In this document: one piece after another, positions 7,835-33,935 of the stretch
How the letters are laid out: each line of letters opens with the position of its first letter
Position numbering within the stretch: position 1 is the first letter of the stretch
Source: a virus
IMG/VR virus record: IMGVR_UViG_3300042351_000503
Coordinates: 1-33,935 of that record
DNA length: 33,935 nt
Direction: 5' to 3' (one strand)
Position numbers and translations under genes: made by a program
The notes under the pieces: model-generated
What the model saw: the letters and a program-made list of their open reading frames with translations, nothing else
Databases searched by the model: none
What the model was told of the DNA's origin: nothing

Positions 7835-8274
7835 TGGAAAGTGCATATTTTACTCCAGAGATAGAAGATTTTTACGTTGGATACGAATTTCAATGTAAAG
7901 TGTATGGGGAAGAAGATGAATGGGTTAATTGTATTTATTCAAGACCAACAGATGAAGTATTTTGTAAAGATAGTGATGATAATATTTGGACAAATGATTC
8001 TCTTAGAGTTCCCTATCTCACTAAAGAACAAATAGAAGCTGAAGGATGGGAATTAATTCAAATCTATCCTAAAGGAGCTTGTATATTTCAAAAAGGAACC
8101 AAAGAAGAAGGATGTGAATTAACATGTGATTTTACAGAACACAGAGTTCACTTTACTAAATTATATTTCTATGGTTTAGATGATGAGTATACAAGAACTA
8201 AACTTACTTGGAGTTCTTTAGAATGTAAAGACATTAACACATTTAGAAAAATCTGTAAACTATTAAGAATATGA
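7834..8274 (+). CDS. Hypothetical acidic protein (146 aa)
   Basis: This is translationally coupled on both sides (TAATG before, ATGA after). The product is acidic and aromatic-rich, with IEDFYVGYEFQCKVYGEEDE near the start and Tyr/Phe-rich β-like segments throughout. It holds six Cys scattered without a CxxC pattern. No family is recognised. Confidence 0.68.
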   Translation: MESAYFTPEIEDFYVGYEFQCKVYGEEDEWVNCIYSRPTDEVFCKDSDDNIWTNDSLRVPYLTKEQIEAEGWELIQIYPKGACIFQKGTKEEGCELTCDFTEHRVHFTKLYFYGLDDEYTRTKLTWSSLECKDINTFRKICKLLRI

Positions 8275-8477: not shown

Positions 8478-8703
8478 AGAATTTTTTAAGGGTTACCCTG
8501 CAGCCAGAGATTATGATGTTAAAGAATGTATTAAGCAAAATGAAAATCTCCAAATAGAATACAAAGGAGATATTATGACCTTAACACCTGAAGAGCTAAG
8601 ATCTAAAGTAGTAGACAAATCAAATAATCTTCCAAGTAAATTTGGTGGAAAAGAATACAGACTACTATGTTATGAGTGGAACCCTGATAAAGTGGAACTA
8701 TGA
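8461..8703 (+). CDS. Hypothetical protein (80 aa)
   Basis: This small basic-to-neutral protein starts inside the previous gene (17-base overlap) and ends in an ATGA overlap with the next. Helical N-terminus, then a stretch ending LLCYEWNPDKVEL. No motif recognised. Confidence 0.62.
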   Translation: MRRECKEFFKGYPAARDYDVKECIKQNENLQIEYKGDIMTLTPEELRSKVVDKSNNLPSKFGGKEYRLLCYEWNPDKVEL

Positions 8704-26164: not shown

Positions 26165-27088
26165 TTATTCTGTTATTACTTGCCAACCTTTAGCAATAAG
26201 ATTATTTTTTGCTGTAATACCAGCTCCTGTTGGAGCAGCATTAGTTCCTGAAAGGTTATTGTTTAAAAACACATCTCCATTTAAATTACCTAAGTTATCT
26301 AATGTTACTAAGATGTAATTAACTGCTGAAGCATTTAAATCACAATCAGTTGCTTCAAGATAATTTAAAGAATCACAATCATCAATAATAAGTGTAGATA
26401 AATTATAATTTTCATAAACAGTGGCAGTTACTAAAGACGCACATCCTGAGAAATCTAGAGCAGTAAAGTTATCACTATATAATTCAGTGTTATCTAAACT
26501 TGTACATCCTTGTACATTCAAGTAAGTAAGATTAGAACATTCAAGAGCATATAATTCTATGATAGGTAGATTAGATACATCTAAAGATTGAATGTTTGTA
26601 CCATCAGCATCTACTTGTTCAATAGAACTTCCTGCAAAAACTGTAGGTAAGTTGGTTACAGATAACAATGTTCCTACAATATTACCATCTCCAATTTCAA
26701 GTCTTCTGAATCCTGATACACTAGTAAAGGTTACTCTTACAGTTTGAGGAATATAATCAGGAGATGAATAATTATGTGATATATAAGATGTAGAAGATAC
26801 ACCTGTAAAGTTAAATGATTCTGTGGTTCCATCACCCCAGTCAATTGTACCTCTCACTGTATTAGTAGAAGAAGATCTCATTCCAAATTCAAAGAATCCT
26901 TCAGAAGGAAGAATCTCCATAATAAGAGGTTCAGGGCATGTTGGAGGTACACAGCATTCATATGCTTGAGTTTCTATCCAAGTTCCTACTTTAGGCTTGT
27001 TACGTCTAAGCACAGTGCTTCCTGGGACAATGCGTCCAGTTCCATCAAAGCGAGAATACGCTTTTAAGTCACGTTTGTTTGGTGTCAT
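26165..27088 (-). CDS. LRR adhesin with RFDGxGRIV...ECC module
   Basis: This 307-residue protein has a module at 1-46 (LKAYSRFDGTGRIVPG ... AYECC) and a PKD-like β domain at about 60-120 (RGTIDWGDGTTESFNFTG). Leucine-rich repeats of Bacteroidota type follow from about 130 to 270 (IQSLDVSNLPIIELYALE, LTYLNVQGCTSLDN, TALDFSGCASL). The last segment, NNNLSGTNAAPTGAGITAKN, is the usual end of such LRR domains. It is a likely surface-binding appendage; similar LRRs occur in host surface proteins, so the domain may be host-derived. Confidence 0.83.
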   Translation of the reverse strand: MTPNKRDLKAYSRFDGTGRIVPGSTVLRRNKPKVGTWIETQAYECCVPPTCPEPLIMEILPSEGFFEFGMRSSSTNTVRGTIDWGDGTTESFNFTGVSSTSYISHNYSSPDYIPQTVRVTFTSVSGFRRLEIGDGNIVGTLLSVTNLPTVFAGSSIEQVDADGTNIQSLDVSNLPIIELYALECSNLTYLNVQGCTSLDNTELYSDNFTALDFSGCASLVTATVYENYNLSTLIIDDCDSLNYLEATDCDLNASAVNYILVTLDNLGNLNGDVFLNNNLSGTNAAPTGAGITAKNNLIAKGWQVITE

Positions 27089-27093
27089 AATTT

Positions 27094-28110
27094 TTAGTAA
27101 TTAAGTTTATATTTATGTTTTAATAAATTTAGTTTGCTGGCATAATACCATGTGCATCTTGTTTTTGATTTCTCATCATTCAACACTACATCTAAATGTG
27201 GATCTAACATAGGATCTTGTCCTGTATGATATTTCCCTTTATAGAAACATGGATGGTCTCCCATCACTGTTCCTGTTATTCCTGCATTATGTAGAATCGA
27301 ATGTGATTCTAATTTTATAAGTGGATCAGATGCCCAAGCAAATGCTAGTTCTGGAACCACTTTAGTTTCTTGTTCTCTAAACCACAGGTTCCAAAGAACA
27401 GCCCACATGTCTGCGCACCAACTTTGATACCCTGCATTCTCATCTTTAAAGAATTCTCTATTCACTTTTTGTAAATAGGTTCTTATAAGAATACAATCAT
27501 TCATCACTTTACTCCAGAAGTCTCCATCTACGTTTTTCAAGAAGTATTGTGCTCCTCCTGAATGATCATTGTTTGCTTCTGCAATTTCTCTTGATATACC
27601 AATAACACTTGCCATCTCACCAAGAATATCTCTTGTTTTGTATTCTTCTAGTTTCTCAGGTAACACCTGATTAATCTTACTGTCAAAATACTTAGCACTA
27701 ATGTAACTGTTTGTATCTGAAAGATAACATACATCATCTTCTAAGAACTTATCAAGACTAAATTCCTGTGTAAAGAGAATATCAGAATCACAATAAAATA
27801 CTGCTTTATCGCTCATTTCAGGATGCTCTTTAAAGTATTTCCAAAGAACGTAAGGACGAAGAACAGGAATGTATATTCCTAATAATTGACTTACGTTGTC
27901 TACATCTTTATAGAAGTTGAATTCAGCTTCTGGATATAGACTTATAATTTGGTCCCACTTCTTATTTTGTTCTCTGTAACTAGGAATAAAAATAAGCACG
28001 ATGGCTTTATCTGAATGTCCTATTTCTCTTAAGCTTTCTAACCAAAGGTGTACTTGCCATGTGTAATAAGTGTCATCTGGCTGACAGGATAAAAATTTTA
28101 ATTCTCGCAT
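27094..28110 (-). CDS. Glycosyltransferase-like protein (338 aa)
   Basis: The protein starts MRELKFLSCQPDDTYYTWQV. A GT-A type DxD site lies in AVFYCDSDILFTQEFSLDKF at about 105-124. CYLSDTNSYISAKYF and then NNDHSGGAQYFLKNVDGDFW and HSILHNAGITG form the catalytic and acceptor half. The 'YlsDt..Yi ... GGaqYllKn.D..FW' blocks match a phage and plant-like Ser/Hyp galactosyltransferase group. It may modify Ser/Thr-rich fibre tails nearby. The first eight codons resemble the start of the HNH gene directly upstream, whose 3' end overlaps this start by 13 bases. Confidence 0.8.
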   Translation of the reverse strand: MRELKFLSCQPDDTYYTWQVHLWLESLREIGHSDKAIVLIFIPSYREQNKKWDQIISLYPEAEFNFYKDVDNVSQLLGIYIPVLRPYVLWKYFKEHPEMSDKAVFYCDSDILFTQEFSLDKFLEDDVCYLSDTNSYISAKYFDSKINQVLPEKLEEYKTRDILGEMASVIGISREIAEANNDHSGGAQYFLKNVDGDFWSKVMNDCILIRTYLQKVNREFFKDENAGYQSWCADMWAVLWNLWFREQETKVVPELAFAWASDPLIKLESHSILHNAGITGTVMGDHPCFYKGKYHTGQDPMLDPHLDVVLNDEKSKTRCTWYYASKLNLLKHKYKLNY

Positions 28111-28706
28111 AATATTGGTTTTTTGGTTTTACTTCTATCATCCCTCTTTAAAATAGAGGTTTTATTTGACTTCCAAGTTCTCAGATAAATTATATCTCTA
28201 ATAATTCCTAAAGATATCCCTGTTTCTTTTGAAACTTCAAAGATACTTTTTCCTAGGTTATAAGAAAGTTTAATTTGTGTAACTTGTGAATCTGTAATTT
28301 TAGCTTTATTATTTTTTTCACCAGCTCTACTAGGTTGCAATCCTAATCTATAAGCATGTAATTGATTTTCTGAATTGCTAACCCATTCAAGATTATCTAC
28401 TTTATTATTTAGCTTGTTACCATCAATATGATTAACTTGTAATTTATTATTACAATTTAATATAAATGCATCAGCAACTAATCTATGAACTAATCTAGTA
28501 TGAGAACCTTTTTTACGAAATCTAACTTCAGGATATCCTTTTTTATTAAATATTTGTTTTAACTCTCTTCCTTTAATGAAACAAGATCCAGTTTTTCTTT
28601 TTACAAGTCTATCTTTTCCTCTAACTATACCTAAATTACTAACTTCATATCCTTCGAATTGTTTTATATCTCGCCATTTTTCACAGATAAATTTCAAATC
28701 TTTCAT
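28098..28706 (-). CDS. NUMOD4-HNH homing endonuclease
   Basis: This 202-residue protein has a NUMOD4 domain at about 9-35 (EKWRDIKQFEGYEVSNLGIV). The HNH core is LVHRLVADAFI, then QVNHIDGNKLNNKVDNLEWV and SNSENQLHAYRLGL. The C-terminal DNA-binding part has an HTH (SIFEVSKETGISLGIIRDII). All catalytic residues of the HNH are present. The first eight residues, MKDLKFIC, do not belong to the usual NUMOD4 start; they resemble MRELKFLSC of the downstream glycosyltransferase. The last codons run through that gene's start. Together this indicates a free-standing homing gene inserted at the 5' end of the glycosyltransferase gene. Confidence 0.88.
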   Translation of the reverse strand: MKDLKFICEKWRDIKQFEGYEVSNLGIVRGKDRLVKRKTGSCFIKGRELKQIFNKKGYPEVRFRKKGSHTRLVHRLVADAFILNCNNKLQVNHIDGNKLNNKVDNLEWVSNSENQLHAYRLGLQPSRAGEKNNKAKITDSQVTQIKLSYNLGKSIFEVSKETGISLGIIRDIIYLRTWKSNKTSILKRDDRSKTKKPILCEN

Positions 28707-28796
28707 AATGTAGTTGGTTTATTATAATTTATTGTTGTGTGTTTATTATGTTTTGGTGTTATACTATAATCATATTACAGCTTTAGAAACAATAAT

Positions 28797-28985
28797 CTAA
28801 GCTGGAGATGTTGTAGTAGTTGTTGTGGTACTAGAACTAGTGCTAGTTGTTGTACTTGTACTACTAGTAGTGGTGGTTGTAATATTACAATTACAACACA
28901 CATCTTTCTGTATTTTGTTTACTTGTTTGATGATACCAAACGTAAGATTGTTTTGGTTACTCCAACCTATTTCACGACTTATCAT
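28797..28985 (-). CDS. Short adhesin with SRxIGW module and Thr/Ser tail (62 aa)
   Basis: The protein starts MISREIGWSNQNNLTFGIIK, which aligns with MGIPSRQIGWDQQSNLLWQL of the 1284-residue protein upstream. Next comes QKDVCCNCN and then an uninterrupted Thr/Ser tail ending SPA. The module and CC pair are kept but there is no distal domain, so it is either a minimal fibre stub with a glycosylatable tail or a truncated relative. The intergenic stretch 28707-28796 downstream of it holds no gene; it has GTATAACACC on the - strand, a possible promoter for the HNH gene. Confidence 0.72.
   Translation of the reverse strand: MISREIGWSNQNNLTFGIIKQVNKIQKDVCCNCNITTTTTSSTSTTTSTSSSTTTTTTTSPA
28806..28880 (-). 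repeat. Thr/Ser-codon repeat (low complexity)
   Basis: Twenty-five consecutive Thr/Ser codons (T36-S60 of the small adhesin) with imperfect trinucleotide repetition. The mirror frame on the + strand is only a shadow. Confidence 0.85.
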
Positions 28986-29002
28986 AATTCGATTTTTTAA
29001 TA

Positions 29003-32000
29003 TTATGTTGTTACAAGAACAACTGCGTATGTACCTGTATTACTTACATATTTAATATAGTTGTCTAAACCTCTACCTTGTACAACATCTTTGCTATAAG
29101 TATTTTCATATATTCTTGTAGCTAAAGATATGTCATCATTTAAGGTGACATAATCAAAGTTTACACGTTCTATACTTCCCACTTGTGTTGATAGATCTAA
29201 TTCTGAACTTTTCAAAGCATTATTAATAAAATCAATAGAGTTAAAAATTGCTTGATTAACTATACTGTTGTTTAATGTATTGTTATAAAAAGATCCACCA
29301 TCAAATTCTGAAGTATGTAAAAGTGAACTATTAAAATAATTATTAGTAAAACTACAGTTAGTTGCTTCTACAAAGTTACAATTTCTCATCTCACAATTGT
29401 TTATAAAAACATTGCTTTGAAAAATTATACGTCCATTAAGATTATTAGCAACAAACAAAGAACTATCAAATACATTTTGAATAAAATATCTTCCTCTAAA
29501 ATTAATAACTTCTACATAACTATCAGTTATTTTATTTGCAAACATTCCAACATAATCCTCAACAGGTATATTATTTGCATATTCATTACCCCATTGGAAT
29601 CCTGCAATAGCTCTGTATATAGGATTATTATAATAAAGTTCATAACTGCTCCAAGATTGCTCTACAGCATTTCCAACATTGTCTTTTCTAGAACTAATGA
29701 AATCATGTGCATAATCATATGTGATTTCATCCCATACAGCATTGTAAATAAAATCGCTGTAGAATGATTCGTGTAGTTCTATAGATGTGATATCAACTGC
29801 ACCAGTGCCATTATCAAGTTGTAGAGCAAATGCTAAGAACAAAGGAGGGCATGATACAATAATGTAATCAGCTCCCACTTCTGTAATAAGCATTGAATTA
29901 TTTGAATTATTAGGATCATAAACAATATCTCCTCCAGCAAAAGATGATGTATCACTTACAAACACTTTGAATTTACCAGGGAATGTCCATATGTTATATT
30001 CTAAATTGTATGCAGATGTATTTCCCATACCAGAACCACCAACCAATGTTATAACAAGTCCTCCCCATATAGCAGTGTCTCCTCGTGAATAACTTGTAGA
30101 AGCATCATATATTCCATATCCTAATACATCTTGATCATATCTAGGATTGTAGAACAAGCCCATTGCTGTATCATTAAATGAATGATGACTGTTTGCTTGT
30201 ATAACAATCTCTGTTCCTCCATATAAGAATAAATCCACATCCATGATGTGATAGAATGCACCTGGCACTAACAAGTTGTTAGTTACAAGATAGTCTATTT
30301 CTGCTTTTGTGTGTGGTTGTGAAAGAGGATAGTCTGTGATTACATCATATGTAGCATTGTAATAACAAGGTCTGTTAACAGGTTCTTTTCCTCCTGAAAA
30401 AGGTTGAACAGTGTAGTCAATGATTGTTCCTATTATTTGCTCAACTTTAATACCACATCCATCCCCTTGTACATAAATATTAAAACCAGCACTATTAGGA
30501 TCATATCCAGGATTAGCATTGTCATCTAATTCCACTTCCATTATATATGGATTAACCCCACTAAAGCTAAGAACAGTTCCTATTAAATTGCCTGTAGCAT
30601 CATCATATATAATATCTCCAGGAACAGGTGGTGTACATGCATTTAAATTACCTTCAAACGTAACAATAGTTCTAATCACTAATGTTTGACCTGCTTCGTT
30701 TCCAAACTGTGTTCCTGAAACAAAAAGACATCCACCCACTGTAGTACATGTATATCCAGGATCTACAATACTTTCACAAATAGATGTTGCCACCTCAGCA
30801 GGAGAAGAAACAGGAACTCCTAAAGCTTGAACATTTGTATATACATCTGTTGTGATGTTGTATTTGAATATTTGTCCATATTGATCTGTAGGACAGTCTG
30901 GTAGTTTTGGTAGATTTGTCATTCCATACAATACATCTACAATAGGAAGAAGTTGTCCTAAAGTAGGAGAACCCCCATCAGTTGGAGCATCAAATGCGTG
31001 CAATGTTGTAAATATACCTACACTAAGATCATATTTGTAAATACTTCCAACTGGAGAAGTACAACCTGTAGGCTCCTCATTTGAATTATTTGTACATCCA
31101 TACAAATTACCAGCAATTTCTATAGGGCATACAGCTTTTCCATATCCATAATTAATATCAAAGCTATGAACAATACTTAATACTGGGATAGTAGAAATAT
31201 CTGTAATTTGACACAATGTTCCATTTTTATCATCACCACCATTAATTGTATTAAAATACACATTACCATCACTGGCTAACATCACTCCTCCACTAGCACC
31301 TATGTATTCTCCTGATACAGAAACATCGTCAAGGTTTACAACTATCTCATCAATTCCTGAACTAAGTATATATTTGAACACTGTACCACTATCATTAGTT
31401 CCACCATTAGTAGAAGTTCCCCACAATTCTCCAGGAATAACTTCTACTAATGGTCCTTGTGGATATTGAATATCTTCATTATCACCCATTTGCAATAACA
31501 CTGTATATGTTACAGCTATTGGATCAAATTCAAATAATGTTCCAAAATCATTAGCTCCACCACCATTACAAGTTCCATATAAAAGTCCTCCTGTATATAA
31601 TAATGTTCCATAAGGATATGCTCCTTCATCATTATCATTATCTATAGAATGTAATACAGTGAATGTATTTGTTGCTATATTCCATTTCCATATAGTTCCA
31701 ACACCATCATTACCACCAGCATTACATGTACCATATAATTCTCCTGCTATTTCAACAAGTCCTGAACTAGGATTACTACCATACGTAGCAGTATCATCAA
31801 AAGTAAACAATATCGTCACTTGCTCTGTAACAGGGTCCATAGAAAACAATTGCCCATCATACTCCTTGTGTGATTGTAACGTTCCATAAATCAAACCATC
31901 TGTAGCTTGCATTAATGTATTTAAATATACACCAAATCCAAGAAGACTATCAAAATCAAAACATATAGGATCTGGTGTAAGGAGTATACTAACTGTTGTA

Positions 32001-32857
32001 ATAGGAGCTGTTGTTACAAATAAACAAGATTTATTATTCTCTATAAAAAATACAGAAACACCAGTCCAATCTCCTGATGTAGGAGCTATTGTAACTGTTG
32101 TTCCTGTTATAGAAGTTATTGTTGCACTTGCAACGCCTTCTTCTGGAGATAACCATCCATTAATTACATCTCCTACAGATAGTGTTGGAAAAGGAATACA
32201 TTTTCCATCTGTATCAATTCTTCCATCTGTACTATCTACACCATTACTAAATGTTCCTTCAGGATTACCAGGACTTGGTGGTATAACACCTGTTCCTCCT
32301 GTTATTTGAAAGAATACTTGACATTGATCCATCCCACCATTATAACCATAATGTATAACTCCTGTATATGTAGGAAAAGGAGCTTCATAACTTGTAAATG
32401 TTACCACATCTCCTTCAGCAAAAATAGAACAGTCTCTTAATCGAACAGGATAGACTGTAGCACCTTCAATATAATCAAAAGAAATAGTTTCTGATTCAGC
32501 ATATACATTGAAACATCCCACTCCTTGATCACTTGTAATACACAAAGCACTTGATGCTTGTTCTTCTCTTCTCACCTCATTGTCAAAATTAGGAAGTCCC
32601 TTTTCAACAAGAACGTATAAAGGATCATCACCTGAGTTTGGTCTGTCAATAATGTTATAGTAACAATCAGCAATAGTTCCTGCATCAACAGCAGCAATGA
32701 ATGCTTCCCAAGTTATATCAGTGAAACTGATACAATTTGCTGTAGAAGATCCACAACATTGACTCATTGTTTTGCCTAATTTATTAAGCTGTGCTTGAAG
32801 TTGCCATAATAAGTTTGACTGTTGGTCCCAACCTATCTGTCTTGATGGAATACCCAT
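29003..32857 (-). CDS. Large receptor-binding-like protein with GloVer-type propeller
   Basis: This 1284-residue protein has the SRQIGW module with CC (1-35), then SFTDITWEAFIAAVDAGTIA and β domains to about 330. At about 350-690 there are repeated blocks of the form LYGTCNAGGNDGVGTIWKWN, LYGTCNGGGANDFGTLFEFD, LWGTSTNGGTNDSGTVFKYI, YGQIFKYN. This is the 'GloVer' tandem repeat (GGxxxxGTxF) predicted to form a β-propeller. Near 855 is KAEIDYLVTNNLLVPGAFYH, a common phage fibre motif. The end (about 1110-1240) has Asn/Phe-rich short repeats (NNCEMRNCNFVEATNCSFTN) like a right-handed β-helix or pentapeptide stack. Probably a long tail fibre or host-recognition protein. Confidence 0.82.
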   Translation of the reverse strand: MGIPSRQIGWDQQSNLLWQLQAQLNKLGKTMSQCCGSSTANCISFTDITWEAFIAAVDAGTIADCYYNIIDRPNSGDDPLYVLVEKGLPNFDNEVRREEQASSALCITSDQGVGCFNVYAESETISFDYIEGATVYPVRLRDCSIFAEGDVVTFTSYEAPFPTYTGVIHYGYNGGMDQCQVFFQITGGTGVIPPSPGNPEGTFSNGVDSTDGRIDTDGKCIPFPTLSVGDVINGWLSPEEGVASATITSITGTTVTIAPTSGDWTGVSVFFIENNKSCLFVTTAPITTVSILLTPDPICFDFDSLLGFGVYLNTLMQATDGLIYGTLQSHKEYDGQLFSMDPVTEQVTILFTFDDTATYGSNPSSGLVEIAGELYGTCNAGGNDGVGTIWKWNIATNTFTVLHSIDNDNDEGAYPYGTLLYTGGLLYGTCNGGGANDFGTLFEFDPIAVTYTVLLQMGDNEDIQYPQGPLVEVIPGELWGTSTNGGTNDSGTVFKYILSSGIDEIVVNLDDVSVSGEYIGASGGVMLASDGNVYFNTINGGDDKNGTLCQITDISTIPVLSIVHSFDINYGYGKAVCPIEIAGNLYGCTNNSNEEPTGCTSPVGSIYKYDLSVGIFTTLHAFDAPTDGGSPTLGQLLPIVDVLYGMTNLPKLPDCPTDQYGQIFKYNITTDVYTNVQALGVPVSSPAEVATSICESIVDPGYTCTTVGGCLFVSGTQFGNEAGQTLVIRTIVTFEGNLNACTPPVPGDIIYDDATGNLIGTVLSFSGVNPYIMEVELDDNANPGYDPNSAGFNIYVQGDGCGIKVEQIIGTIIDYTVQPFSGGKEPVNRPCYYNATYDVITDYPLSQPHTKAEIDYLVTNNLLVPGAFYHIMDVDLFLYGGTEIVIQANSHHSFNDTAMGLFYNPRYDQDVLGYGIYDASTSYSRGDTAIWGGLVITLVGGSGMGNTSAYNLEYNIWTFPGKFKVFVSDTSSFAGGDIVYDPNNSNNSMLITEVGADYIIVSCPPLFLAFALQLDNGTGAVDITSIELHESFYSDFIYNAVWDEITYDYAHDFISSRKDNVGNAVEQSWSSYELYYNNPIYRAIAGFQWGNEYANNIPVEDYVGMFANKITDSYVEVINFRGRYFIQNVFDSSLFVANNLNGRIIFQSNVFINNCEMRNCNFVEATNCSFTNNYFNSSLLHTSEFDGGSFYNNTLNNSIVNQAIFNSIDFINNALKSSELDLSTQVGSIERVNFDYVTLNDDISLATRIYENTYSKDVVQGRGLDNYIKYVSNTGTYAVVLVTT

Positions 32858-32859
32858 AT

Positions 32860-33468
32860 TTATATGTATATTAAATTAGTATTGTTTTTAATTTTGCCTT
32901 GTAAAATTTTACACAAGGTATTATAATTTAAGTTAAAAATCAAAGCAGCTTCTTTTATTCCAAAGTAAAATGTTCCTGTTTCTTTATGTAAAATAATTTT
33001 CATACTATTTTTCATATTCTTCATTTTCATTCTTGTAGATAGAGAATGTTTTATTCCTTTATGAGAATCGCTTATCTTCTTTTTACTCTCTATAGAATGA
33101 TTCCATTTTCCTCTAGTTTGTAACATTTTATCAATAGATTCTTTAGGTAATTTTCCACCTCGACCACCTTCTTTTATGTTTAAAAGATTGCATCCAAGAT
33201 CCTTATAAAAATTAATATAGTAAATTTCTAATTCATCCAAATCAAATTGTGTAACATTATCAGACTGACATTCTTTAATTATTTCAAATTTATGGTTTTG
33301 CCACGTATGTTTCTTAAATGAATTAAATAAAACTCTTTGTTTATAAACACTTTGTAAACTTCTATATTTAGAAAATCTTTTTTTAATGTCCCAACTTTGA
33401 CCAATGTAGACTTTACCACTAGGGCTAGTAATTTTATAAATTCCTATTTGTCTATTTGGTATTCCCAT
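32860..33468 (-). CDS. GIY-YIG homing endonuclease with captured fibre-gene start
   Basis: This 202-residue protein has a GIY-YIG nuclease domain from residue 9 (GIYKITSPSGKVYIGQSWDI) with the catalytic Arg in KKRFSKYRS and Glu in LDELEIYYINFYKDLGCNLL. Then come IKEGGRGGKLPKES, NUMOD3-like SIESKKKISDSHKGIKHS, and a NUMOD1-like end (GIKEAALIFNLNYNTLCKIL). The N-terminus MGIPNRQIG is not part of normal GIY-YIG proteins but matches MGIPSRQIGW of the downstream 1284-residue fibre. The stop is 2 bases before that fibre's ATG. This points to a free-standing homing gene that took over a copy of the fibre's start. Confidence 0.88.
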   Translation of the reverse strand: MGIPNRQIGIYKITSPSGKVYIGQSWDIKKRFSKYRSLQSVYKQRVLFNSFKKHTWQNHKFEIIKECQSDNVTQFDLDELEIYYINFYKDLGCNLLNIKEGGRGGKLPKESIDKMLQTRGKWNHSIESKKKISDSHKGIKHSLSTRMKMKNMKNSMKIILHKETGTFYFGIKEAALIFNLNYNTLCKILQGKIKNNTNLIYI

Positions 33469-33490
33469 TTCTTTATAATTTATTAGTTAT

Positions 33491-33498
33491 CAAAGATA
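33491..33498 (-). promoter_or_regulatory. Candidate promoter TATCTTTG before the GIY-YIG gene
   Basis: On the - strand TATCTTTGATAAC lies 22 bases before the GIY-YIG ATG and fits TAnnTTTG, with a following ATAAC as in the recA element. The spacer between the stop at 33499 and the start at 33468 is only 30 bases, so support is limited. Confidence 0.35.
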
Positions 33499-33645
33499 TT
33501 AATTTATATCTAATGTTATTGTTATGAAACCAAGAAAGAGAACATATGATGTATAATCAAATTTCTCATCAGGGTGTAGGACTTCCCATCCTATTGCTAG
33601 TCTATCGTGTGGCCAATGAAATGATATTTCTAATTGCCAATCCAT
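33499..33645 (-). CDS. Hypothetical small protein (48 aa)
   Basis: The ATG (33643-33645, reverse) overlaps the TAA of the upstream gene (TAATG). The product MDWQLEISFHWPHDRLAIGW, then EVLHPDEKFD, ends in a hydrophobic stretch YVLFLGFITITLDIN. The pattern 'l.f.WP..r.aiGWe.l.pde...Y....lyLG..ti..d' seems familiar from other phages, but no role is known. β-rich, possibly membrane-proximal. Confidence 0.7.
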   Translation of the reverse strand: MDWQLEISFHWPHDRLAIGWEVLHPDEKFDYTSYVLFLGFITITLDIN

Positions 33646-33779
33646 TATCCCTGTCCTTTATTTAATTTCTTGTATAGTTTGCTAGATTTCAACTTTGATG
33701 TCTTTGCTTTTGCGTGTACACCAGGACGACTGATCGTAGGTTTTAAAATCTTTTCTGCTGTGTTGGTTTGTTTTGCCAT
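33645..33779 (-). CDS. Conserved small basic phage protein (44 aa)
   Basis: The product MAKQTNTAEKILKPTISRPG continues VHAKAKTSKLKSSKLYKKLN and ends KGQG. The 'RpGVHAK.KtSklKsSk.YkK...GQG' pattern occurs in many phages of Bacteroidota and other aquatic bacteria as a tiny Lys-rich protein of unknown function. It is coupled by TAATG to the next gene. By composition it belongs with the Lys-rich proteins of 17897-21085. Confidence 0.78.
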   Translation of the reverse strand: MAKQTNTAEKILKPTISRPGVHAKAKTSKLKSSKLYKKLNKGQG

Positions 33780-33784
33780 TGGTT

Positions 33785-33935
33785 TTAAAATAAGTTATAT
33801 TCTACAATAAATCCATATCCTGATGGATTGTTTGGTTGTACAAAGTATTGTGCTCCTAAACTAAATTTAGGAAATTCAAGTAATAATGTTCCATATAAAT
33901 ATGGATTAACTATAGTGGCATTTACACTTTGAACT
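33785..33935 (-). CDS. β-rich protein, C-terminal fragment at window edge
   Basis: The frame runs off the right edge, leaving the last 49 residues. It has alternating hydrophobic strands (TIVNPYLYGTLLLEFPKFSL, then GAQYFVQPNNPSGYGFIVEY) and ends NLF. The pattern of short amphipathic strands with Gly and Asn turns and a terminal Phe resembles the end of an outer-membrane β-barrel, but a virion β-protein is also possible. The N-terminus is needed to decide. Confidence 0.6.
   Translation of the reverse strand, partial: VQSVNATIVNPYLYGTLLLEFPKFSLGAQYFVQPNNPSGYGFIVEYNLF

Follow-up and report, generated by a model that had tools for sequence, protein, structure and literature searches.

Insertion of a homing endonuclease gene (HEG) into another gene without splicing should break that gene. 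The stretch of viral DNA analysed here (a 33,935-base virus record, hereafter the window) raises the question of how a HEG came to open with the first codons of the very gene that follows it, and of what became of that gene's own start. The nearest phage to the window, by best match among 50,697 phage records, is Chryseobacterium phage MA9V-3, with identities of 35.5% for the phrog_4417 gene discussed below and 43.4% for RecA.

Two starts at the fibre-like gene

The HEG in question (minus strand, 32860–33468; 202 aa) reads MGIPNRQIGIYKITSPSGKVYIG and matches the Pfam family GIY-YIG (PF01541) over residues 8–90 with an E-value of 1.6e-6, above the cut-off. Two nucleotides past its stop codon begins an open reading frame of 1284 aa (minus strand, 29003–32857), which reads MGIPSRQIGWDQQ and carries an N-terminal module, RQIGW, that is common to many genes in related loci. 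This gene has no PHROG family and its sole Pfam match is sub-threshold; the name 'fibre' is a possible interpretation, made in the preliminary description of the sequence and by us, with no family match behind it. The HEG opens MGIPNRQIG (ATG GGA ATA CCA AAT AGA CAA ATA GGA, 33442–33468) and the fibre gene MGIPSRQIGW (first nine codons ATG GGT ATT CCA TCA AGA CAG ATA GGT, 32831–32857). The two starts are identical at 20 of 27 nucleotides, and of the five codons that differ four do so silently and one replaces Asn by Ser. Among the 261,726 pairs of ATG-anchored 27-mers on the minus strand, 13 have as many as 20 identities, and the HEG/fibre pair is one of them.

The preliminary description had claimed that the HEG begins with the first nine codons of the fibre gene, with about 20 of the first 27 bases matching and several differences silent, and both claims held. 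Its placement of the join at the common Gly9 held only in part: both the nuclease (M-IGIYKIT) and the fibre module (RQIGW) have an Ile-Gly of their own, which leaves the join undecided within Ile8–Gly9 and makes MGIPNRQ the foreign part. Its statement that GIY-YIG proteins normally start at the GIY motif held for most of the relatives described below.

Does the gene encode a homing endonuclease? Residues R31 and E81 are invariant in 28 aligned sequences and probably represent the catalytic Arg and Glu whose roles in GIY-YIG nucleases have been described (PMC2988022), such that the catalytic residues would be kept; the matching of positions is ours, and activity is inferred. The structure model (mean pLDDT 85.6, pTM 0.50) resembled the I-TevI catalytic domain 1ln0 (Foldseek E-value 7.2e-3, probability 1.00) and, more weakly, the I-TevI DNA-binding domain (E-value 0.16, probability 0.96), with no Foldseek match at an E-value of 0.001 or better. 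The HEG meets the criterion of a GIY-YIG catalytic domain as found in homing endonucleases of the I-TevI type, with cutting and excess inheritance inferred from presence, absence and discordance alone. In eight HEG pairs (one GIY-YIG and seven of the HNH type discussed below), dN/dS was about 0.28–0.55, as in genes whose function is maintained.

An assembly accident was considered and rejected, since four further contigs from separate metagenome records (L001–L004) carry the same arrangement as the window.

Searching viral DNA with the MGIPxRQIG codon pattern returned 13 stretches. In three contigs without the HEG (L012, L015 and L019), the upstream flank and the first codons are the same, and these codons continue directly into the fibre gene. 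The 30 nucleotides that now lead into the HEG (minus strand, 33469–33498) are identical at 30 of 30 positions in all three, and the first 26 nucleotides of the HEG differ from L012, L015 and L019 by 0, 3 and 1 mismatches, respectively, compared with 6, 3 and 5 for the present fibre start. Because the HEG-free alleles have the HEG's flank and first codons running into the fibre, we conclude that the HEG sits behind fibre codon 8 or 9 and uses the fibre's own leader and start, and that the fibre uses an altered copy on the HEG side. These alleles support the first of two alternatives offered in the preliminary description, namely that the HEG inserted at fibre codon 9 and the fibre was rebuilt with a duplicated 5′ end.

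A rival explanation is module shuffling, in which the nuclease was joined to a spare copy of the RQIGW module in the manner of fibre bodies, with no homing into a coding start involved. In its favour, many genes in related loci begin with this module, and tandem module genes are frequent. Against it, the HEG-free alleles have a single gene at this place, with the HEG's flank and start, and the same layout occurs at module-free genes (the phrog_4417, DNA polymerase and terminase genes described below). We consider this explanation unlikely.

A milder rival holds that only co-conversion took place: the replacement start would be a divergent allele, with no selection for changed codons or cut resistance. 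The upstream flank in the window is nearest to L019 (98.5%) and the first 300 nucleotides of the fibre body to L015 (98.0%), which is what a co-conversion tract would produce; the Ser codon TCA of the replacement start is also present in L015. This pattern may reflect co-conversion accompanying insertion and is equally compatible with the divergent-allele view, which remains possible; the evidence against it comes from the HNH genes below.

The preliminary description had also named two observations that would refute its reading: the same opening on related nucleases beside unrelated genes, and an ancient nuclease N-terminus. Both were checked among GIY-YIG loci (best 80 of 492 confirmed; two loci of 26% identity, L005 and L006, were left out, the match in L005 lying inside a 614-aa repeat-rich open reading frame). 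On a 114-kb contig (L016), a HEG with 61% identity to that of the window by alignment and 54% by BLASTP likewise begins MGIPNRQIG; the gene that follows is a different one of 46 residues, MIPSRQIGWSQEANLLWEI, yet it too starts with the module (MIPSRQIGW). A second HEG, in L258 (58% identity), has another version of the prefix, opening MGTPAKQIGIYKIT, and lies on a contig that does not reach the next gene. An MGIPxRQ-type prefix is absent from all 78 other relatives read among the best 80 (L023–L100), and in 65 of these 78 a Met codon stands directly before IGIYK. Given that the next gene in L016 also has the module and that unprefixed relatives mostly start M-IGIYK, the prefix is not an old nuclease N-terminus, a candidate further contradicted by the differing prefix of L258. 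Tentatively, and inferred from sequence alone, the GIY-YIG nuclease appears tied to DNA of the RQIGW module.

An HNH gene with the same layout in the same genome

The start-sharing arrangement is not unique to the GIY-YIG/fibre site. Elsewhere in the window, a NUMOD4-HNH HEG that opens MKDLKFIC (minus strand, 28098–28706; Pfam NUMOD4 E-value 3.2e-11, HNH_3 E-value 2.5e-10) has the same layout at another gene, a member of phrog_4417 (E-value 9.1e-57; minus strand, 27094–28110). The function of the latter gene is unknown: it has no Pfam family, and a reading as glycosyltransferase was dropped, as no family search supports it. The first eight codons of the HNH HEG (28683–28706) are the original start of the phrog_4417 gene, with one mismatch in 24 nucleotides to the HEG-free allele L148, and the phrog_4417 gene now opens MRELKFLSC, its replacement start (MRELKFLS) having six mismatches in 24 nucleotides to the nearest HEG-free allele.

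The MKDLKFIC opening was found in 12 of 44 related HNH loci, some of the 12 being near-identical copies, and the next gene opens with a KDLKF variant in all 11 of those with enough sequence. For the target, the best 80 of 192 confirmed loci were taken; among 81 loci with the phrog_4417 gene, 64 starts were readable by pattern, 58 without and 6 with a HEG motif upstream (in 5 of the 58, less than 700 nucleotides upstream were in view). HEG-free starts read MKDLKFIC in 22 of the 58 and variants in the rest. Replacement-type starts without a HEG motif upstream occur in L182 (MSKELKF) and L222 (MKKELRF), both about 2995, and may have been left after HEG loss or may be natural variation. At all 10 loci compared, the HEG copy of the start lies 0–1 mismatches in 24 nucleotides from a HEG-free allele, and the replacement copy 2–6. 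When five codons were compared with nothing left out, against 53 well-viewed alleles, the HEG copy was closer in 9 of 10 loci and the replacement copy in one (L140).

Pairs of HNH loci in which element and recipient disagree showed which copy travels with which. In L109 and L110 the element is the same, with 98% identity in the HEG body, 100% in the new leader and 97% in the replacement start, but the recipients differ (flank 67%, first 24 nucleotides of the HEG 88%). Conversely, L105 and L109 have similar recipients (flank 88%, HEG first 24 nucleotides 100%, target body 95%), whereas their elements differ, at 68% identity in the HEG body and 73% in the replacement start. L103 and L108 are likewise alike in the target (98%) and in the first 24 nucleotides of the HEG (100%) but diverge in the HEG body (63%), the leader (47%) and the replacement start (80%). 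The low identity of their flanks (49%) is not predicted by our model. From the discordance of these three pairs it follows, by comparison, that the first eight codons of the HEG go with the recipient phage and the replacement start with the element.

The same pairs bear on co-conversion. Between near-identical targets carrying different elements (L105/L109 and L103/L108), target identity is 73 and 80% in the first 30 nucleotides, rises to 90 and 97% in the next 30, and stays at 87–100% in later 30-nucleotide steps. Identity rising in this way within 60 nucleotides indicates that the altered piece ends close behind the start, which argues against co-conversion as the only process. So does a third target: in L139, an HNH gene (MSLIVADLE) overlaps a family A DNA polymerase gene (MSLIIADLE), and seven of the nine codons differ between the two starts, six silently and one by replacement. 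A search for a HEG-free allele of this polymerase returned only L139's own contig.

Could splicing restore the original message instead, leaving the second start unused? Phage HEGs often reside in introns, and an insertion just inside the coding sequence would fit one. Against an intron, the reading frame fills the insert, and the second start keeps its amino acids while its codons change. No intron family was found at E-values up to 1 in positions 27000–33935, where the only two weak matches were unrelated eukaryotic RNAs; with no recognisable intron RNA there, a group I or group II intron was rejected. Because no intron family was found and the amino acids are kept while the codons change, splicing is very unlikely. 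An intein was also rejected: the distances from start to start (611 and 596 nucleotides in the window, 592–602 at the other HNH loci) include no multiple of 3, so the insert is not in-frame, and the HEG ends in a stop codon.

A third nuclease gene of the window, of the endonuclease VII type (Endonuclease_7, PF02945, E-value 2.7e-26; 20280–19774), lies between other minus-strand genes and, judged by eye only, has no start in common with its neighbours. Short threonine-rich genes that have only an N-terminal module of the RQIGW type in common precede the phrog_4417 gene in the window (28985–28797) and in many related loci (L145–L224). Two further families of adjoining genes have only an N-terminal module in common (LKAY.RFDGSGRIV and TFIK.GFWEQLC); they lie at 27088–26165, 25986–25564, 25648–25340 and 23042–21645 in the window and also occur in related loci.

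Frequency of shared starts and further targets

How often does a HEG match the start of the gene that follows it? At a score of at least 20, a match with the next gene was found for 11 of 92 distinct HEGs versus 34 of 8190 mispairs when positives are not paired with one another (106 of 8372 when they are). At a score of at least 30, the counts were 4 of 92 versus 0 of 8190 (16 of 8372 with pairs among positives). The remaining 81 of the 92 HEGs had no start in common with the next gene at a score of 20, and L016 was left out of the mispaired test, its target gene being below the 60-aa limit. A comparison of HEGs with neighbours that are not HEGs did not discriminate because tandem module genes are common, and mispairing was used instead. 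Nine of the 11 matching HEGs belong to the HNH family at phrog_4417; independent origins are therefore few.

Among named phages, the HEG preceding the terminase gene in crAss001 (MH675552, L242) reads MIPMNK-CGIYMITSPSG if its frame is extended upstream of the annotated start; in the HEG-free phages cr106 and cr112 the corresponding reading is MIQMNK-YQTEL and MVAMNK-YQTE. The crAss001 terminase restarts as ATGAACAAGTATCAA, 595 nucleotides past the ATGAATAAATG of the HEG. The part in common is short here, with three codons certain. Records of 25 PhiCrAssBcn isolates cover 71% of the crAss001 query at 96.7–97.8% identity, and the insert is absent in Bcn1 and Bcn9, the two of the 25 that were read directly; the 25 are relatives of crAss001 and probably all lack the terminase insert. 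Both crAss001, with the insert, and all 25 isolates are recorded from Bacteroides intestinalis. The paper describing the crAssBcn phages notes only endonuclease variability (PMC10354031).

Staphylococcus phage SapYZU04 (L252, 19805–21452) presents a looser, unfused form, in which a displaced piece of 51 residues, MVNKIKDKICYMGGHLLNQAM, is followed by an HNH gene with its own start; next comes a nucleoside deoxyribosyltransferase gene whose N-terminus is a different one, MANLVKELQVYNGGHILNDAM. In phages Terranova and Stab21, which also have a HEG there, the working start is similar to the displaced piece of SapYZU04; Stab21 has its own displaced piece, MVNKIKDKVIYMG. Displaced N-terminal pieces of this gene before HNH genes vary in length, from 51 codons in SapYZU04 to short pieces in Quidividi and Stab21 (L254, L255), and may be eroding. 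No start in common was seen for the HEGs of Flavobacterium phages elemoA and FL-1, or of 'frurule', Dulem virus 41 and nepoznato.

Proposed mechanism and known counterparts

We propose, as the likely overall model, that a start-less HEG travels together with a replacement 5′ end for its target; cutting, homing, self-protection and expression are inferred. In this model, the nuclease would cut the target near its conserved first codons. The element is inserted there, as the comparisons show, such that the nuclease gene now begins with the target's leader, ATG and first codons and the target continues from a second start on the element side, with nearly the same residues and changed codons. Splitting of the site together with the codon changes would stop self-cutting, and the A+T-rich 3′ end of the HEG would serve as the target's new leader. 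Both starts are presumed to be used, and the target would still work, its coding end being occupied without an intron or intein.

A bolder reading is that such elements form a natural class of home-and-rescue-like phage elements, spanning GIY-YIG and HNH nucleases, in which start-less nucleases enter the first codons of conserved genes, appropriate the recipient's start each time they invade and bring along a recoded start that resists cutting and restores the target. Taken as a whole, this reading has our preference by a narrow margin, with cutting and resistance inferred.

The closest counterparts are the fungal mitochondrial mORFs, in which the carboxy-terminal part of a gene is duplicated (Glomus atp6, atp9, cox2 and nad3, and Allomyces atp6; PMC3630166). 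These, too, combine a free-standing HEG inserted in a gene with a partial second copy of the gene that differs mostly by synonymous changes; the native piece is displaced, and there are both LAGLIDADG and GIY-YIG members. In mORFs, however, the duplication concerns the C-terminal end: the copy is joined in phase to the upstream gene and completes it, and the native end is left behind. The phage elements instead duplicate the 5′ end, and their HEG takes over the native start as its own. The phage elements meet the mORF criterion of a HEG with a synonymously diverged target copy and fail that of the C-terminal end; by analogy, they look like the 5′-end mirror image of mORFs.

Mitochondrial inserts of Tremella fuciformis (PMC7315562) similarly carry a fragment resembling the host gene and vary in presence between isolates, but they are called introns, the fragment lies at the 5′ end of the insert and resembles the following exon, and no reuse of a start codon is described. 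T4-type seg and mob HEGs (PMC2988022) are likewise free-standing GIY-YIG and HNH genes beside the genes they target, with I-TevI-type domains, but no duplicated target start is described in the relevant sections, and the stem 'duplicat' is absent from the text. The ShiLan element in phage methylases (PMC11855218) is likewise an HNH gene within the coding sequence of a phage gene, where neither an intron nor an intein was found; there, the host gene is read through the insert, the HNH gene is out of frame and starts at an internal GTG, and the relevant sections describe no duplicated target start. We found no description of a phage HEG with a copied target start in the open-licence PubMed Central literature searched, most subscription papers being outside that scope.

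The GIY-YIG and HNH elements appear to avoid breaking their targets by using the target's start and supplying a replacement, a layout that is also that of engineers' gene drives with a recoded rescue. If the proposed model is true, the most conserved codons of a gene could serve a HEG as homing site, and free-standing HEGs would gain access to coding ends that only introns and inteins can otherwise enter. Start capture also explains foreign N-termini on HEGs. Finally, the annotation of starts at such genes can mislead: in crAss001, the HEG is annotated as starting within the GIY-YIG motif (locus 8028), and the terminase as starting within the HEG (8572). Judged against relatives, starts at 7998 or 8007 for the HEG and at 8602 for the terminase are the better fit.
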